Part shown: positions 43,828 to 56,424 of the stretch, piece after piece
Layout of the letters: each line of letters starts with the position of its first letter
Position numbering within the stretch: the stretch's first letter is position 1
Assembly (NCBI RefSeq): GCF_015840915.1
Contig: NZ_CP060398.1
Span: 868,001-932,000 of the forward strand
Direction: 5' to 3'
Length of the DNA: 64,000 nucleotides
From: Synechococcus sp. CBW1002
GTDB lineage: Bacteria; Cyanobacteriota; Cyanobacteriia; PCC-6307; Cyanobiaceae
The notes under the pieces: model-generated
Seen by the model: only the letters and a program-made list of their open reading frames with translations
Database searches by the model: none
What the model was told of the DNA's origin: nothing
Program-made: the position numbers and the translations under genes

Positions 43828-44271
43828 TCACCCTAGGGGGAACTGAGAAGATTCACCAAGGATCGAGATATCTGGATCTTCCTCAAAGATCATTCGAAGC
43901 CTTTCCTGCAGCCGGGCGATCTCGGAAGAAGATTCCTGCGCCCGAGCGCCAAACCAGGGCCATCGACTGGCGAGGGGCGTAAGCACGGTGACACAGAGAT
44001 CAAGATCGTCCGAATCATCGATGGTTCTGCCGTAGATCCCAATCCCACAGACCCTTCCCAGGCCCAGGATCTCCACCCACCATCCCCAGTCTTCGCAGGT
44101 GAAGAACGGAACCGCATACCCCCGAGCCGTGAGCTGCGCCTGCAGATAGAGGGCACAGGCCTTGCCGTAGGTGCCTTCATTCACCAGCTCCTGATCCTCA
44201 CCGGGGAGCATCCGCAGCCCGGCCGATCGGATGTGCAGGAAGGGAAGGACTTCCATGCGTGGTTGCATTGC
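43828..44271 (-). CDS. Uncharacterised protein, intact copy of a duplicated gene
   Basis: 147 residues from the ATG at 44271 (MQPRMEVLPFL). The protein has a distinctive central part GTYGKACALYLQAQL, YAVPFFTCEDWGWWVEI and DDSDDLDLCVTVLTPLASRW. I do not recognise a named family. The aromatic and acidic clusters suggest a small alpha/beta domain. A second copy with frameshift and nonsense mutations lies at 46217-46703. The shared sequence runs from about 43831 to 44309, so the duplication includes about 40 bases upstream of the start. Confidence 0.68.
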   Translation of the reverse strand, partial: AMQPRMEVLPFLHIRSAGLRMLPGEDQELVNEGTYGKACALYLQAQLTARGYAVPFFTCEDWGWWVEILGLGRVCGIGIYGRTIDDSDDLDLCVTVLTPLASRWPWFGARAQESSSEIARLQERLRMIFEEDPDISILGESSQFPLG

Positions 44272-45780: not shown

Positions 45781-46161
45781 CTACAGACCCTTCCTGTCCA
45801 AGGCATCGGCCAACCGGGTCACCGCCGAAGCCAGCTGGGCCTGAGTATCGGGAGGTGCCACCGCCTCCTCCTTGCGTTTGGTGGCCTCGATCGCCCGCAC
45901 GATCAGGAACACCACGAAGGCGATCACCAGGAAGTTGATCAGCGCCACGATCACGGCGCCGGCCGGCCAGGCGTTGATCGAGTCGACCTGGGCAGCCTTG
46001 AGCGCGGGCTCCAGCAGGCTGGTCATCACCAGGCTCACAACTGCGTCGACCACCTTGCCGAAGGCGCCGCCGATCACCACCGCTACAGCAAGGTCAACCA
46101 CATTGCCCTTGTTGATGAAGGCCTTGAAATCGGCAAGGAAACTGGAGCGACGCGGGGCCAT
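45781..46161 (-). CDS. mscL: Large-conductance mechanosensitive channel MscL, copy 1
   Basis: 126 residues with the two-span MscL architecture: FLADFKAFINKGNVVDLAVA before TM1, VVIGGAFGKVVDAVVSLVM, a short periplasmic loop, TM2 with ALINFLVIAFVVFLIVRAIE, and the C-terminal helix ending ALDRKGL. The protein relieves acute osmotic downshock by forming a large pore. An almost identical copy is at 56044-56424; the products differ only at one residue near the C-terminus (LADALDRKGL against LAEALDRKGL). Confidence 0.96.
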   Translation of the reverse strand: MAPRRSSFLADFKAFINKGNVVDLAVAVVIGGAFGKVVDAVVSLVMTSLLEPALKAAQVDSINAWPAGAVIVALINFLVIAFVVFLIVRAIEATKRKEEAVAPPDTQAQLASAVTRLADALDRKGL

Positions 46162-46216: not shown

Positions 46217-46703
46217 CTCTAGGGGGAACTCAGATGATTCACCAAGAATCGTGACTTTCTGGATCGGCCTCGAAGATCATTCAAACCAGTTCCTGCAGCC
46301 GTGCAATCTCGGGCGAAGAATCCTGCGCTTGAGCGCTAAAGTCAGGCCCATCGACTGGCGCTGGGCGTGAGTACGGTGACACAGAGATCAAGATCTTCCG
46401 AATCATCGAGGGCCCTGCCGTAGATCCCAATCCCGCAGACCCTACCCAGGCCCTGGATCTCCACCCACCATCCCCAGTCTTCGCAGGTGAAGAACGGAAC
46501 TGCATACCCCTGAGCCATGAGCTGCGCCTGCAGATAGAGGGCACAGGCCTTGCCGTAGGTGCCTTCGTTCACCAGCTCCTGATCCTCACCGGGGAGAATC
46601 CGCAGCCCGGCTGATCGAACGTGCAGGAAGGGCTGGGCATCCATGCGTGGTTTGGATTGCTCGAGTTCTCTGGTGCCGCACGGCAGAGATGGCCAGTCGG
46701 CCA
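46217..46703 (-). pseudogene. Decayed second copy of the gene at 43828-44271
   Basis: The sequence is homologous to 43831-44309 at both ends. Identical or near-identical protein parts are GEDQELVNEGTYGKACALYL and FFTCEDWGWWVEI. A nonsense codon (TGA) follows ASRWA where the intact copy reads ASRWPWF, and a one-base insertion after it shifts the frame, so the tail EIARLQE appears in another frame. It is joined at about 46704 to the IS1182 remnant. The many differences from the intact copy indicate that the duplication is not very recent. Confidence 0.83.
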
Positions 46704-46829: not shown

Positions 46830-48198
46830 GAGTTTGCGGAAAAACCGCCTGAGAAGCAGCGTTTTTCCCTCCTGAGAGCTGGTGCAGCTCATTTCGGTCT
46901 GGTTTTCAGAGTTTCAGCGGCTCAGAGCTCCCCTTTTGGTGTGTTTTGCCCCTTTGGGGCTCCCTGATCACTGCCGTCTGGGCACACTTCTGGGCAACCA
47001 CCTGTTCACGCCGCCGCCATCGCCGGTTTGAGCAGGTTGCCCAGGCGGATCAGGTTGTAGGCGATCACATTCAGGCCGAACACCGCACTCACCTTCTCGG
47101 TGCCGCGCAGCTTGAACTGGCGCAGACCTCCCCACTGTTTGATCCAGCCAAACACCTTCTCGATGCCGCGGCGGGCATGGATCGACTTGGCGTAGCCCAC
47201 GTGGCGGGTGGTGCGGCCATCGATGGCGGAACCACCAGATCGGGCGGTGTTCTGCACCACGTGCGGCGTCACGCCGATGCGGCGCATCTCGGCGACAAAG
47301 CCCCTGGTGTCGTAGTGCTTGTCGGCACCGATGGTTTTCTGGTGGGCACCGGGACGATCCGCGGCCATGGCTTTGGCGGCATCCCGCTCCCCGGTGCCCG
47401 TGGCTTGCGTGACCTTGCAATCGACGATCAGGGCATGGCGGTTGTCCATGAGCACATGACCCCGGTAGCTCGGTTGAGCCGGGTGGGCGTTGGATTTCCG
47501 GGCCAGCAAGGCGTCGGGATCACTGCCGGAGCGGTGGGTCTTGTTGCTGAGCTTGATGCCTCGGAAATCCCCTTTCGCTCGCTTCTTGCCGGGCTTTGGA
47601 GCGCCAAAACCCTCGCCAGGGCCTGACGGCGGTGGCGGCGGATCGTCCTGCCCATCGATCCGCTCCAGTGAGGCATGGGAGGCCCAGGCCTGCAGCAAGG
47701 TGCCATCGACGGAGAAGTGCTCGTCACTGAGCAGCGGCTTGACCTCCGGAGCACCCATCAGCTTCTCCAGGAACTTCCCCATCACCTGCTCGTTCAGCAG
47801 CCGCTCCCGGTTTTTTGTGAATGTGGTGGGATGCCAGATCGGATCATCTGGGCTCAGCCCCACAAACCAGCGGAACAGCAGGTTGTAGTGGAGCTGCTCG
47901 AGCAGCAACCGCTCCGAGCGGATGCCGTAGAACGCCTGCAGCAACGAGGCCAGCAGCAGTTGCTCCGGCGGCACTGATGGCCGGCCTTCTGCGGCGTACA
48001 GATCACAGAAGGTGGGATTGAGGCGATCGAGGGCCTGATCGGCCAGCTTGCGGATCCGCCGCAGCGGATGGCCGGCCGGGATCCGATCCTCAATCGACAC
48101 GTAGGAGAACAGGGAGCCGCTGCGCTCCCGTTGACCTCGCATCTGGGCTGGACAGCTGGCCCATTCTCGCAGAGATGGCCGGGTTTTTCAGCAAACTC
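46830..48198 (-). mobile_element. IS5-family insertion sequence inside the IS1182 remnant
   Basis: A 1369-bp element. Its ends are GAGTTTGCGGAAAAACC at 46830 and GAGTTTGCTGAAAAACC read inward from 48198, one mismatch in 17. The direct repeat GTAA flanks it (46826-46829 and 48199-48202). The target was an IS1182-type element, as its pieces continue on either side. The transposase inside is complete. Confidence 0.88.
47006..48142 (-). CDS. IS5-family transposase
   Basis: 378 residues. The family's opening FSYVSIEDRIPAGHPLR leads to a DUF772-type N-terminal domain (YAAEGRPSVPPEQLLLASLL, LLFRWFVGLSPDDPIWHPTT). The DDE core has DEHFSVDGTLLQAWASH, GADKHYDTRGFVAEMRR and a Glu in the ARRGIEKVFGWIKQWGGLR segment. 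A Pro/Gly-rich loop near residue 165 is a variable insertion. The gene is intact, so the element may be able to move. Confidence 0.93.
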   Translation of the reverse strand: MRGQRERSGSLFSYVSIEDRIPAGHPLRRIRKLADQALDRLNPTFCDLYAAEGRPSVPPEQLLLASLLQAFYGIRSERLLLEQLHYNLLFRWFVGLSPDDPIWHPTTFTKNRERLLNEQVMGKFLEKLMGAPEVKPLLSDEHFSVDGTLLQAWASHASLERIDGQDDPPPPPSGPGEGFGAPKPGKKRAKGDFRGIKLSNKTHRSGSDPDALLARKSNAHPAQPSYRGHVLMDNRHALIVDCKVTQATGTGERDAAKAMAADRPGAHQKTIGADKHYDTRGFVAEMRRIGVTPHVVQNTARSGGSAIDGRTTRHVGYAKSIHARRGIEKVFGWIKQWGGLRQFKLRGTEKVSAVFGLNVIAYNLIRLGNLLKPAMAAA

Positions 48199-48685: not shown

Positions 48686-49336
48686 TCAACCCCGGGGGCT
48701 GTGGGTCACGGGCACGGGAATCGCGAGCAGGTCGCCAACGTCGCCAGACGACACAGCCGAGTCGGAGGCAGCGACAACGCTCATGTCATCGAGCACGGCC
48801 GGGATGATGCCGGCATCAAAGGAGAAGCGGCCAGGGCCGTTGAACAGCAGCGCAAGGCTGCCGCCCAGGTACAGCAGCACCAGCTCGAGCACGTAGATGT
48901 TGAAGCCGGCGGTGGAGATGTGCTGGTAGGCCGCCACGGTCATCGTGCCGCTCAGGGCCAGGGCGCCGAGGGGTGTGAGCAGGCCGAGGATCACCAGCCA
49001 GCTGCCGATCAGCTCGGAGAAACCGGCGGCATAGGCGAAAAACAGCGGGAAGGGCAGATGCAGCGAGGCCACATAGGTGTTGGCGAATTGCTGGGGATCG
49101 GCGAGCTTCTCCTGGCCGTGGTGAATCATCAGGGCGCCGATGGTGAGCCGCAGCAGCAGCAGACCGAAGGACGCCATGGGGCCGGGCCTCAGATAGGCCT
49201 TCACCGCGGGAGCCAACGCCGTGAGCCGAGCCGGAGGGGCAAAGCTGGTGACGGGCTTGCCGAGGGCGACGAACCAGAGGGCGAAGCAGGCGGCCATGAA
49301 GGCCACGAAGAGCTCGAGCAGGGTGGACGTGGACAC
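48686..49336 (-). CDS. DoxX-family membrane protein
   Basis: About 216 residues from a GTG at 49336; the frame is open further upstream without protein-like content. Four spans are visible: LLELFVAFMAACFALWFVAL, FGLLLLRLTIGALMIHHGQEK (with the DoxX HHGQEK signature), LPFPLFFAYAAGFSELIGSW and LVILGLLTPLGALALS, then VLELVLLYLGGSLALLF. DoxX proteins are small quinone-linked or redox-partner membrane proteins. The function here is not known. The C-terminus carries an extra acidic tail. Confidence 0.83.
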   Translation of the reverse strand: MSTSTLLELFVAFMAACFALWFVALGKPVTSFAPPARLTALAPAVKAYLRPGPMASFGLLLLRLTIGALMIHHGQEKLADPQQFANTYVASLHLPFPLFFAYAAGFSELIGSWLVILGLLTPLGALALSGTMTVAAYQHISTAGFNIYVLELVLLYLGGSLALLFNGPGRFSFDAGIIPAVLDDMSVVAASDSAVSSGDVGDLLAIPVPVTHSPRG

Positions 49337-49504: not shown

Positions 49505-49768
49505 ATGACCGCTGGCGAGCTGTTCCTCGAGAGCCTCAGTTCCGGGGTGATCACCCAGGCCGAGATCGACTGGCTGGTCAGCCAGCAGGGTCGCTTTTCG
49601 AGATCCGAACAAGCGGCGATGCAGCGGCTGGGACGGCTGCTGGATCATGGGCAGATCCAACTGGGGTGCCGAATTGCACCGCACTGGCAAGGGAAACGGC
49701 AGGTGCTGCGCGAGTGGTTCGTGCCGCTGGACCGGCGGAGCAGATCCTCCCTGCTCCGAACCACCTGA
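49505..49768 (+). CDS. Conserved small cyanobacterial protein
   Basis: 87 residues. The helical part MTAGELFLESLSSGVITQAE is followed by IDWLVSQQGRFSRSEQAAMQ and LGRLLDHGQIQLGCRI, then a basic tail (REWFVPLDRRSRSS). I recall similar small proteins in Synechococcus genomes but know no function. It is directly behind the palindromic site and 89 bases before the LPLAT gene's ATG. Confidence 0.7.
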   Translation: MTAGELFLESLSSGVITQAEIDWLVSQQGRFSRSEQAAMQRLGRLLDHGQIQLGCRIAPHWQGKRQVLREWFVPLDRRSRSSLLRTT

Positions 49769-49857: not shown

Positions 49858-50580
49858 ATGCAACACCCCATCCCCTTGCAACTGTCACGCAGCCTGCTGG
49901 GTGCCGCAGGGATTTCAGCGTCATTGCACAATCTTGAGAGAATTCCCACCAGGAATCGATTACTCATTGTCAGCAACCACCGCAGTCTTTTTGATGCTCC
50001 CCTGCTGATGACGGCGATCAGTCGGCCGGTGCGGTTCGTCTATCACTATTACATGAGTCAAGTGCCGCTACTGCAGCAGGCAATGATGCTGATGGGTGCC
50101 TTCCCGCTCAAGACTGGTCAAGGAAGGCAGTCGTCATTCTTTCTGAAGTCAGCAAGGTTTTTGCAAGACAATCAGGTGGTAGGCGTGTTTCCCGAAGGCG
50201 CGGATCCGATGGTGAAGGTCAACGCCCCCCATCAGCTGAGCCCGTTCCACAGGGGTTTTGCCCATCTTGCCCTGAGGGTGCCGGTGGATGACCTGGCGAT
50301 TCTGCCAGTTGCCATCGCTTCAAGGGATGAAAAGCAGGGAAAGCTTGCACCGCTTGAATGGTTTCGGCGTTTCGATCCATCGGAAGCACTGTTTCAAGGT
50401 GATGGCTGGCATTCTGCGGTCGTCTATCGACATGTTGATGTTTTCTTTGGCTATCCTCTGCTGATCGATAAGGGTTTGAGATCCCGCTATCGAGGCAGCA
50501 GCGGAGCCACTGTTGTCAGAGAAATCACCCAGGTCTGCTGGAGCCAGATTGCTGAATTCTTGGCTCACAGACGCTGCTGA
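49858..50580 (+). CDS. LPLAT-type acyltransferase (phytyl-ester-synthase-like C-terminal half)
   Basis: 240 residues. The HX4D-type acyltransferase motif is NHRSLFD (H41, D46), and the FPEG motif is VVGVFPEGADPMVK. Plant phytyl ester synthases (PES1/2) carry this LPLAT module C-terminal to an alpha/beta-hydrolase; the Synechocystis relative Slr2103 is a stand-alone LPLAT that acylates plastoquinone and diacylglycerol. Here the next gene supplies an alpha/beta-hydrolase. The GC content and codon use are visibly lower than in flanking genes. Classical PlsC is less likely given the partner. Confidence 0.82.
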   Translation: MQHPIPLQLSRSLLGAAGISASLHNLERIPTRNRLLIVSNHRSLFDAPLLMTAISRPVRFVYHYYMSQVPLLQQAMMLMGAFPLKTGQGRQSSFFLKSARFLQDNQVVGVFPEGADPMVKVNAPHQLSPFHRGFAHLALRVPVDDLAILPVAIASRDEKQGKLAPLEWFRRFDPSEALFQGDGWHSAVVYRHVDVFFGYPLLIDKGLRSRYRGSSGATVVREITQVCWSQIAEFLAHRRC

Positions 50581-50593
50581 GGCTTCCAGATTC

Positions 50594-51436
50594 ATGATCA
50601 CCACCTCCAAGATTTTACGGCTAATCCCTTGCACGCCTGCAACACCATCTCGGCCGTTGTTTGTCTTTTTGCCTGGCATGGACGGCAGCGGCACCTTGCT
50701 GCAATCCCAGGTTGCCGGACTCAGCCCGCACTTTGACATCCGCAGTCTGTCAATTCCCCCAGACGACCGCACAGGATGGGGCGAACTGACCGAGCGGGTG
50801 GCCACTCTGATCAGGATGGAGCAGCAACGGCATCCTGGCCACACGACCACAGTTTGTGGCGAATCGTTTGGAGGTTGTTTGGCGTTGAGCCTGATCTCGC
50901 ACTTTCCAGACCTGTGTGACCAGTTGATTCTGGTCAATCCCGCTTCATCAGCCGGGCGACAACCATGGATCAGTGCCTGCAGTTCGTTGACTCAGCTGTT
51001 GCCGGCACCGCTCTACCGACTCTCCACCCTCAGTCTCTGCAATCTTTTGATTGCATCCCACCGGGTCAGCAGGCCACGACGGCAGCGGCTGCTGGCTGCC
51101 ATGCAGGCAGTCAGCCCCCAGAGTGCCGCCTGGCGATTGGCATTGCTCCGGCAGTTTCGTCTGGAGGATCTTGCAATCGATCGCGTTCGTCAGCCTGTTC
51201 TGATCCTGGCCTCAGGAGCGGATCGCCTCCTCCCTTCCCGGCGCGAGGCGTGGCGATTGGAACGCTGTCTGCCGAGGGCAACAACCCTGCTGCTTCCCGA
51301 TAGCGGGCATGCCTGCCTTATAGAGAGTCAGGTCAATTTATCTGCCATCCTCAAGTCGCAGGCTCAGTGGTCTGATCGGTTGTCACTCACCCGGGCGATG
51401 GGCGCTCCAGTCCAGCCTGCCGCGATTCTCCGGTAG
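50594..51436 (+). CDS. Alpha/beta-hydrolase (phytyl-ester-synthase-like N-terminal half)
   Basis: 280 residues with a full catalytic set: nucleophile S91 in CGESFGG, D210 in LILASGADRLLPS and H239 in PDSGHACL. The opening PLFVFLPGMDGSGTLL matches the esterase/lipase module of plant PES proteins (FLPGxDGxG). It starts 13 bases after the acyltransferase stop, and like that gene it has more AT-rich codons than the surroundings. The pair would transfer fatty acyl groups to phytol or another isoprenoid alcohol, or edit them. The role is inferred from the arrangement. Confidence 0.82.
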   Translation: MITTSKILRLIPCTPATPSRPLFVFLPGMDGSGTLLQSQVAGLSPHFDIRSLSIPPDDRTGWGELTERVATLIRMEQQRHPGHTTTVCGESFGGCLALSLISHFPDLCDQLILVNPASSAGRQPWISACSSLTQLLPAPLYRLSTLSLCNLLIASHRVSRPRRQRLLAAMQAVSPQSAAWRLALLRQFRLEDLAIDRVRQPVLILASGADRLLPSRREAWRLERCLPRATTLLLPDSGHACLIESQVNLSAILKSQAQWSDRLSLTRAMGAPVQPAAILR

Positions 51437-54707: not shown

Positions 54708-55737
54708 CTTGATTACCCAGCTCGCTCCGTGCAGGCCATTTGTCCCGACTAGAGTGGTACGCAGATACTGTTCTGGCCATGGCGCGCAACGGCATCCAGT
54801 TCCAGAAGGGCCTGTCTCTGCCTGAGTTCCAGCGGCTCTACGGCACAGAGGAGCAATGTGAGGCTGCTCTGGAGAAGGCTCGCTGGCCGGATGGGTTCCG
54901 GTGCCCTCGCTGCAATAGGCATGAGCATGGCCTGGTTTACGGCCGACGACTCAAGCGCTACCAATGCCGCAACTGCGGCCATCAGACAACACTCACGGCC
55001 GGCACGATCCTGCAGGCCACCAAGCTCCCTCTGACAAACTGGTTCCTGGCCTTTTATCTGATCGGCCAGGCCAAGAACGGGATCTCCTCGCTGGAATTGA
55101 GTCGTCACCTGGGCGTCAACTACGACACCGCCTGGCTGCTTCACAACAAGATCCTGCGGGCGATGAGCGAACGGGAGGAGGAGTATCTGCTGCGGGGAAA
55201 GATTCAGATAGATGATGCCTACCTCGGCGGAGAACGCACTGGCGGCAAGGTGGGTCGCGGATCAGAAAACAAGATTCCGATCGTGGCAGCCGTCTCGTTG
55301 AACGAGTCCGGCCATCCGATCCACGCAAAGATCGCGCCGGTGAATAGCTTCAGTTCAGAGGCGATCGCTAACTGGTCCTTGAATAATCTGACTCCCGGTA
55401 GCGATGTACTCTCCGATGGCCTGGCCTGCTTCCGCGCCGTGACCACGGCCAACTGCCACCACAAGGCGAATGTCACCACCGGCCAGCACCCCAACGACCT
55501 GCCGCAGTTCCGCTGGATCAACACCCTGCTGGGCAACCTAAAGACCAGCTTCAACGGCACCTTCCATGCCTTCAACTTTGACAAGTACGCCAAGCGCTAC
55601 CTGGGCGGCTTCTGCTTCCGCTTCAATCGGCGCTTTGCCATGGCTGAGATGACCGAGCGCATCGCCAATGCAGTTTGCTGCTGCATGCCTTGCACGGAGC
55701 GGGATCTCAGGCTTGCGGAGGCTTATGGGTAATCAAG
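54708..55737 (+). mobile_element. IS1595-family insertion sequence
   Basis: Its ends include CTTGATTACCCA (54708-54719) and the reverse complement TGGGTAATCAAG (55726-55737), a perfect 12-bp inverted repeat. The transposase stop codon TAA lies inside the right end. I did not find a clear direct repeat at the flanks. The left flank, read leftward, is 176 bases with no gene I can recognise. Confidence 0.8.
54779..55732 (+). CDS. IS1595-family transposase
   Basis: 317 residues. The N-terminal zinc ribbon is FRCPRCNRHEHG and YQCRNCGHQTTLTAGT; the ISXO2-like domain has IQIDDAYLGGER with the first catalytic Asp. The remainder includes HIP1-like codons at 55362. The family segments LTNWFLAFYLIGQAKNGISS and LGVNYDTAWLLHNKI are clear. 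The reading frame is complete. Confidence 0.93.
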   Translation: MARNGIQFQKGLSLPEFQRLYGTEEQCEAALEKARWPDGFRCPRCNRHEHGLVYGRRLKRYQCRNCGHQTTLTAGTILQATKLPLTNWFLAFYLIGQAKNGISSLELSRHLGVNYDTAWLLHNKILRAMSEREEEYLLRGKIQIDDAYLGGERTGGKVGRGSENKIPIVAAVSLNESGHPIHAKIAPVNSFSSEAIANWSLNNLTPGSDVLSDGLACFRAVTTANCHHKANVTTGQHPNDLPQFRWINTLLGNLKTSFNGTFHAFNFDKYAKRYLGGFCFRFNRRFAMAEMTERIANAVCCCMPCTERDLRLAEAYG

Positions 55738-56043: not shown

Positions 56044-56424
56044 CTACAGCCCCTTGCGGTCGAGCGCCTCGGCGAGCCTTGTCACCGCCGAAGCCAGCTG
56101 GGCCTGAGTATCGGGAGGTGCCACCGCCTCCTCCTTGCGTTTGGTGGCCTCGATCGCCCGCACGATCAGGAACACCACGAAGGCGATCACCAGGAAGTTG
56201 ATCAGCGCCACGATCACGGCGCCGGCCGGCCAGGCGTTGATCGAGTCGACCTGGGCAGCCTTGAGCGCGGGCTCCAGCAGGCTGGTCATCACCAGGCTCA
56301 CAACTGCGTCGACCACCTTGCCGAAGGCGCCGCCGATCACCACCGCTACAGCAAGGTCAACCACATTGCCCTTGTTGATGAAGGCCTTGAAATCGGCAAG
56401 GAAACTGGAGCGACGCGGGGCCAT
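56044..56424 (-). CDS. mscL: Large-conductance mechanosensitive channel MscL, copy 2
   Basis: 126 residues, differing from copy 1 (45781-46161) at a single residue (E for D in LAEALDRKGL). It has the same two-span architecture. The first 118 codons are identical in DNA too. The last eight codons use other synonymous codons, e.g. the final CTG TAG is shared but the codons for R-K-G before it differ. This suggests an older divergence that a gene-conversion event has mostly erased. Confidence 0.96.
   Translation of the reverse strand: MAPRRSSFLADFKAFINKGNVVDLAVAVVIGGAFGKVVDAVVSLVMTSLLEPALKAAQVDSINAWPAGAVIVALINFLVIAFVVFLIVRAIEATKRKEEAVAPPDTQAQLASAVTRLAEALDRKGL

Follow-up and report, generated by a model that had tools for sequence, protein, structure and literature searches.

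The window, a 64,000-nucleotide stretch of the Synechococcus sp. CBW1002 genome (3.85 Mb, one contig), carries two adjacent genes on the plus strand, referred to here as AT and HYD. A sequence-only reading had described an LPLAT acyltransferase and an alpha/beta-hydrolase 13 bases apart, the latter with a FLPGMDGSG opening. Open reading frame coordinates and Pfam matches confirm the arrangement, and the opening lies at HYD residues 25–33. The features of the locus are as follows.

45781–46161 and 56044–56424, both minus strand: two mscL genes, almost identical over a repeat of 300 nt (96% identity)
47006–48142, minus strand: DDE transposase (DUF772), Pfam match
48686–49327, minus strand: DoxX-family membrane gene, Pfam match, adjoining the AT-HYD pair
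49505–49768, plus strand: small open reading frame of 87 aa without a family match above cut-off; its position upstream of the pair is conserved in genome G139
49858–50580, plus strand: AT gene, LPLAT/PlsC-fold acyltransferase of 240 aa, PF01553 at E=1.1e-21
49978–49995, plus strand: AT HX4D catalytic motif, NHRSLFD (H41, D46), HX4D in 149/149 relatives
50188–50199, plus strand: AT FPEG motif, residues 111–114, FPEG in 149/149 and PGG in 0/149 relatives
50579–50593, plus strand: AT-HYD junction read directly, the AT stop overlapped by GAGG (TGA-GG) and followed by the HYD ATG
50594–51436, plus strand: HYD gene, alpha/beta-hydrolase of 280 aa, PF12146 at E=2e-11 and PF00561 at 2.7e-11
50666–50692, plus strand: HYD opening FLPGMDGSG, predicted oxyanion-hole strand/turn, LPG[MLI]DG in 152/166 relatives
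50864–50866, plus strand: HYD predicted nucleophile Ser91 (GESFGGC), GESFG[GA]C in 162/166 relatives
54740–55732, plus strand: transposase-like open reading frame, assigned by eye

The AT start at 49858 is backed by the family alignment; the open frame extends further upstream. The intergenic gap of 13 nt (50581–50593) begins within the GAGG, and a terminator scan found no terminator-like site on the plus strand of this interval. The junction sequence is consistent with a single mRNA and coupled translation of the two genes. The transposase gene and the transposase-like frame, which lie on either side of the pair's region, fit local rearrangement. The two mscL genes, 10,263 bases apart, flank this region, and a second repeated gene lies at 43955–44254 and 46343–46642 (92% identity). 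DoxX also adjoins the pair in G139, G180 and G192, in two different arrangements, and the neighbours common to the window genome and G139 are DoxX, the small open reading frame and the region of a LysM-like open reading frame. PADLOC gave no match to anti-phage defence systems, and the Rfam search for RNA elements gave none either.

AT has the characteristics of a PlsC-type LPLAT enzyme. Its PF01553 score is 77.4 bits (cut-off 23), HX4D and FPEG are both in place, and residues N40, H41, R42, S43 and D46 are invariant in the family alignment. The AlphaFold (AF2) model has a mean pLDDT of 81 and is weakest directly after the FPEG motif. Its closest fold in the PDB is the lysophosphatidate acyltransferase PlsC (PDB entry 5kym, Thermotoga maritima) with a moderate TM score of 0.60; PlsC is also the top PDB match by sequence, and the glycolipid acyltransferase PatA is among the structural relatives. 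AT shares PF01553, HX4D and FPEG with this enzyme and with cyanobacterial PlsC, but it is not the housekeeping PlsC. It forms its own cluster and clade, apart from the PlsC of all compared cyanobacterial genomes and beside two PlsC families in the tree, and unlike PlsC it practically always occurs with HYD. The housekeeping PlsC of the window genome sits elsewhere (G000:C1:539760). The OlsF/OlsI ornithine-lipid and GlsA glycine-lipid acyltransferases show weak profile similarity to AT and HYD, far under their curated cut-offs (about 17–25 bits versus 260–620). Identity with OlsF or GlsA was thus rejected against the NCBIfam cut-offs (23.8 versus 620 bits and 17.4 versus 260 bits).

HYD is a predicted serine hydrolase. 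The triad assigned by motif is S91-D210-H239, and all three residues are invariant across 20 relatives. The AF2 model has a mean pLDDT of 77, and its closest PDB fold is RutD (PDB entry 3v48). PDB searches with HYD yielded general fold relatives only, while the profile matches include monoacylglycerol lipases. The alpha/beta-hydrolase module with a serine nucleophile that is typical of plant phytyl ester synthase (PES) is thus present in HYD (PF12146/PF00561, GESFG[GA]C and the fold), and its motifs appear similar to those of the PES hydrolase domain.

The pair is widespread and close to inseparable. We surveyed 340 Cyanobacteriia genomes with cut-offs of E<1e-40 for AT and E<1e-30 for HYD; AT occurs in 169, HYD in 192 and both in 168. 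The one genome with AT and no HYD is a fragmented MAG of 850 contigs, and 24 genomes have HYD without AT. Both full genes are found in 24 of 201 Cyanobiaceae genomes, and none of the 201 has only one full gene. In one Cyanobiaceae genome (G149) AT is absent and HYD is a remnant interrupted by an internal stop, probably the product of decay. We read 80 named loci, and in 75 of the 77 that could be judged AT is followed directly by HYD on the same strand. None of the 80 contains an AT-HYD fusion or a third gene conserved across lineages; metG and an NYN-domain gene are neighbours in 47, on the strand opposite to the pair. Co-occurrence in 168 of 340 genomes, with the gene order preserved at nearly all loci read, excludes a chance association. 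The main clades of the AT tree match those of the HYD tree, as do subclades inside Cyanobiaceae, and the distance correlation between the two proteins is 0.94 overall and 0.91 within Cyanobiaceae. Vertically inherited genes are always expected to be congruent, so the agreement within the family is the more informative. Gloeobacterales also carry the pair, still adjacent, with AT scoring about 200–215 bits, so the pair is likely ancient and ancestral in cyanobacteria. The window copy is an ordinary member of this conserved pair, and the evidence supports reading AT and HYD as neighbouring lipid-ester enzymes that behave like a single unit.

The base composition of the pair is unusual. GC content is 54.1% in AT and 59.7% in HYD against 65.7% in the whole window, and 57.1% for the pair against 64.7% in its flanks. 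GC3 is 59% in AT and 65% in HYD, where the long open reading frames of the window average 78% (sd 10). The sequence-only reading had taken this for a low-GC island and a sign of horizontal transfer. GC and GC3 are indeed lower than in the surroundings, but the dip is confined to the two genes and no larger island is seen. A dip of 6 to 13 points recurs at the pair in 9 of 10 Cyanobiaceae examined, so the low GC belongs to the genes of the pair rather than to this site. The Cyanobiaceae copies are monophyletic in both the AT and the HYD tree (support 99 and 100), which weighs against arrival from outside the family. Within Cyanobiaceae the picture differs: three genera (g30, g35 and g48) are spread over several subclades. 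Another genome of the same genus as the window genome (G023) lacks the pair. The simplest reading is that AT and HYD were jointly transferred within the family, which we consider likely; old duplication followed by loss may be an alternative. Transfer thus survives as probable mixing inside Cyanobiaceae, not as foreign acquisition. The view that the pair is recently transferred low-GC cargo with no stable role in its host draws on the same composition, the patchy occurrence in the family (24/201), the intermixed genera and the nearby transposase gene. We consider it very improbable, as the family's copies form one clade (99–100% support) within an old cyanobacterial family, the frames and catalytic residues are intact, and adjacency is maintained across the whole class.

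The pair had also been proposed to be a split or ancestral PES. PES1 and PES2 (ELT family) likewise combine an alpha/beta-hydrolase module with an acyltransferase module, but they do so in one chain with the hydrolase first, whereas here AT comes first in a separate gene. In PES the acyltransferase is a member of the DAGAT superfamily (PF03982), with a third motif that contains P, R, E and two G (PMC12526585). PF01553 is the sole family match of AT, with no DAGAT model among its matches, and the pair ATs have FPEG in place of the PES-type PGG. The closest cyanobacterial acyltransferases to PES are the MFATs of the slr2103 type (PMC12048435). MFAT (slr2103, A0918) is recognized by PF03982, GSHNGG and PGG, and these features are absent from the pair AT; PGG occurs in 31/31 and FPEG in 0/31 MFATs. 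MFAT is about 280–320 aa long and, unlike AT, does not stand beside HYD (0 cases in the loci retrieved). The profile of the pair AT matches the slr2103/PES-type profile only weakly (hhalign probability 77%, 21% identity, 197 columns), which places the two in one superfamily but in separate families. The topology with the pair AT as sister to MFAT has a p-AU of 0.18 and is neither favoured nor rejected. A separate MFAT gene is present in the window genome at G000:C1:2924632–2925417, 2 Mb from the window, so the PES-type acyltransferase of this genome is kept apart from the pair. This copy was found with the MFAT alignment; PF03982 at E<=1e-8 does not recover it. The family and motif tests and the separate MFAT gene exclude a literal split PES. 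The PES question rather divides in two, as MFAT, the acyltransferase half, and HYD, the hydrolase half, have different histories.

MFAT is tied to the pair in another way. It is present in 22 of the 24 genomes with HYD and no AT, compared with 89 of 168 pair-bearing genomes (53%; Fisher p=2.5e-4). The two exceptions (G392 and G458) are fragmented assemblies. The 22 genomes come from about seven families, with ten in f32 (which includes Dolichospermum and Cylindrospermopsis) and five in f31 (which includes Synechocystis), so the effective sample is small and the p-value overstates the significance. The losses of AT are phylogenetically non-independent, nearly half of them falling in Nostocaceae. 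The association suggests that the two acyltransferases are interchangeable, with MFAT seemingly a possible substitute for the pair AT and loss of AT occurring where this substitute is available.

The products of MFAT are triacylglycerol (TAG), phytyl esters and acylated plastoquinols (PMC12048435; see also PMC11973298 and PMC12174987 on these lipids). Mutants of Synechocystis 6803 and Synechococcus 7002 in this gene lose acyl-plastoquinol, and S. elongatus 7942 has neither MFAT nor acyl-plastoquinol (PMC12048435). Gloeobacter violaceus makes acyl-plastoquinol with 16:0/18:0 chains in the absence of MFAT, by an enzyme that is still missing, while its TAG and phytyl esters are near or at the solvent level in cells grown in low light and unstressed (PMC12048435). 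We compared these data with gene calls in congeners of the assayed strains, identified through plasmid matches: Gloeobacter morelensis, Picosynechococcus PCC 7117, S. elongatus PCC 11801 and Synechocystis PCC 7338. The pair occurs without MFAT in Gloeobacter, MFAT occurs without the pair AT in Synechocystis and Picosynechococcus, and S. elongatus carries neither acyltransferase. At genus level, the gene pattern matches the published acyl-plastoquinol data in all four genera. In the PF01553 inventory, one Gloeobacter family alone, the pair AT, has no counterpart in S. elongatus, Synechocystis and Picosynechococcus; the Gloeobacter PlsC and a PF01553 family of ~480 aa are both shared with S. elongatus. 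In the tree, the AT of G212 groups with that of G. morelensis.

We therefore favour, at a probability of about 0.38, a conserved cyanobacterial lipid-ester module in which AT most likely acylates plastoquinol and is replaced by MFAT in some lineages. AT would take an acyl group, probably from acyl-ACP, and form a neutral lipid ester with a hydroxyl-bearing lipophilic acceptor, for which the quinol of plastoquinol is the most likely candidate. Synthesis of acyl-plastoquinol is where its role is proposed to overlap with that of MFAT. HYD, as a serine esterase probably encoded on the same message, would act against or with AT, either by hydrolysing the ester product or by supplying AT with acyl groups cleaved from membrane lipids. 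In several lineages the DGAT2-type MFAT would have taken the place of AT, with HYD retained. Several points weigh against the quinol as acceptor. Lipid data and a gene call coincide in only four genera, whose pattern is shared by many other genes. The inventory covered PF01553, and WS/DGAT, MBOAT or hydrolase-type acyltransferases could also make acyl-plastoquinol. The window genome and the other MFAT carriers among pair-bearing genomes (53%) hold both enzymes. A farther-reaching version appears to us rather unlikely: the pair AT, ancestral in cyanobacteria, would be the sought acyl-plastoquinol synthase that works independently of MFAT, HYD would later have partnered MFAT in lineages that lost the original AT, and plant PES would have arisen by fusion of the same hydrolase to an MFAT-type partner.

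Nearly as likely as the plastoquinol reading, though still tentative, is a Lands-type cycle of membrane-lipid remodelling, in which HYD would deacylate a glyco- or phospholipid and AT would re-acylate the lyso-lipid, adjusting fatty acids under stress. A lyso-lipid would be just as natural an acceptor for AT, whose closest matches among solved structures are phospholipid acyltransferases. The PF01553 assignment with PlsC as top match in both sequence and structure, the monoacylglycerol lipases among the profile matches of HYD, and an obligate pairing that suits deacylation with reacylation all speak for such a cycle. It leaves unexplained why the absence of AT coincides mainly with the presence of MFAT (22/24); moreover, many cyanobacteria that remodel their membranes do so without the pair, and housekeeping PlsC enzymes exist in parallel. 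Acylation of some other hydrophobic or glycosylated product, such as a carotenoid glycoside, a hopanoid or an acyl-galactolipid, would suit the structural kinship with PatA and the wide yet patchy distribution of the pair. We regard it as unlikely, because no biosynthetic neighbour gene is conserved across lineages and nothing points specifically to such an acceptor. The phytyl-ester reading, in which HYD would free phytol or acyl groups and AT would form phytyl esters during chlorophyll loss, is improbable and the weakest of the three set against each other here, behind plastoquinol and the Lands-type cycle. It can claim a hydrolase and an acyltransferase in one unit, HYD motifs that are presumably PES-like, and the company of the PES-type MFAT where HYD lacks its own AT. 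Besides the wrong family and motif of AT, the reversed gene order and the separate MFAT gene, it is disfavoured by the lipid data of Gloeobacter: with the pair present and MFAT absent, phytyl esters are at the solvent-control level, in unstressed cells (PMC12048435).

The folds of AT and HYD were already known. None of the freely accessible papers searched describes the pair as a conserved unit, its apparent exchange with MFAT or its fit to the missing activity in Gloeobacter. An uncharacterised and very widespread cyanobacterial gene pair thereby gains a testable role, and the missing acyl-plastoquinol activity of Gloeobacter gains one two-gene candidate with the right distribution that can be tested directly. 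The absence of AT from Synechocystis, Picosynechococcus and S. elongatus, the usual model-strain genera, may explain why it was overlooked. Four genomes of the genus Synechocystis (G261, G394, G406 and G431; loci L170–L173) have a diverged stand-alone HYD with MFAT and no AT; this HYD could be a simple gene to knock out in a model genus.
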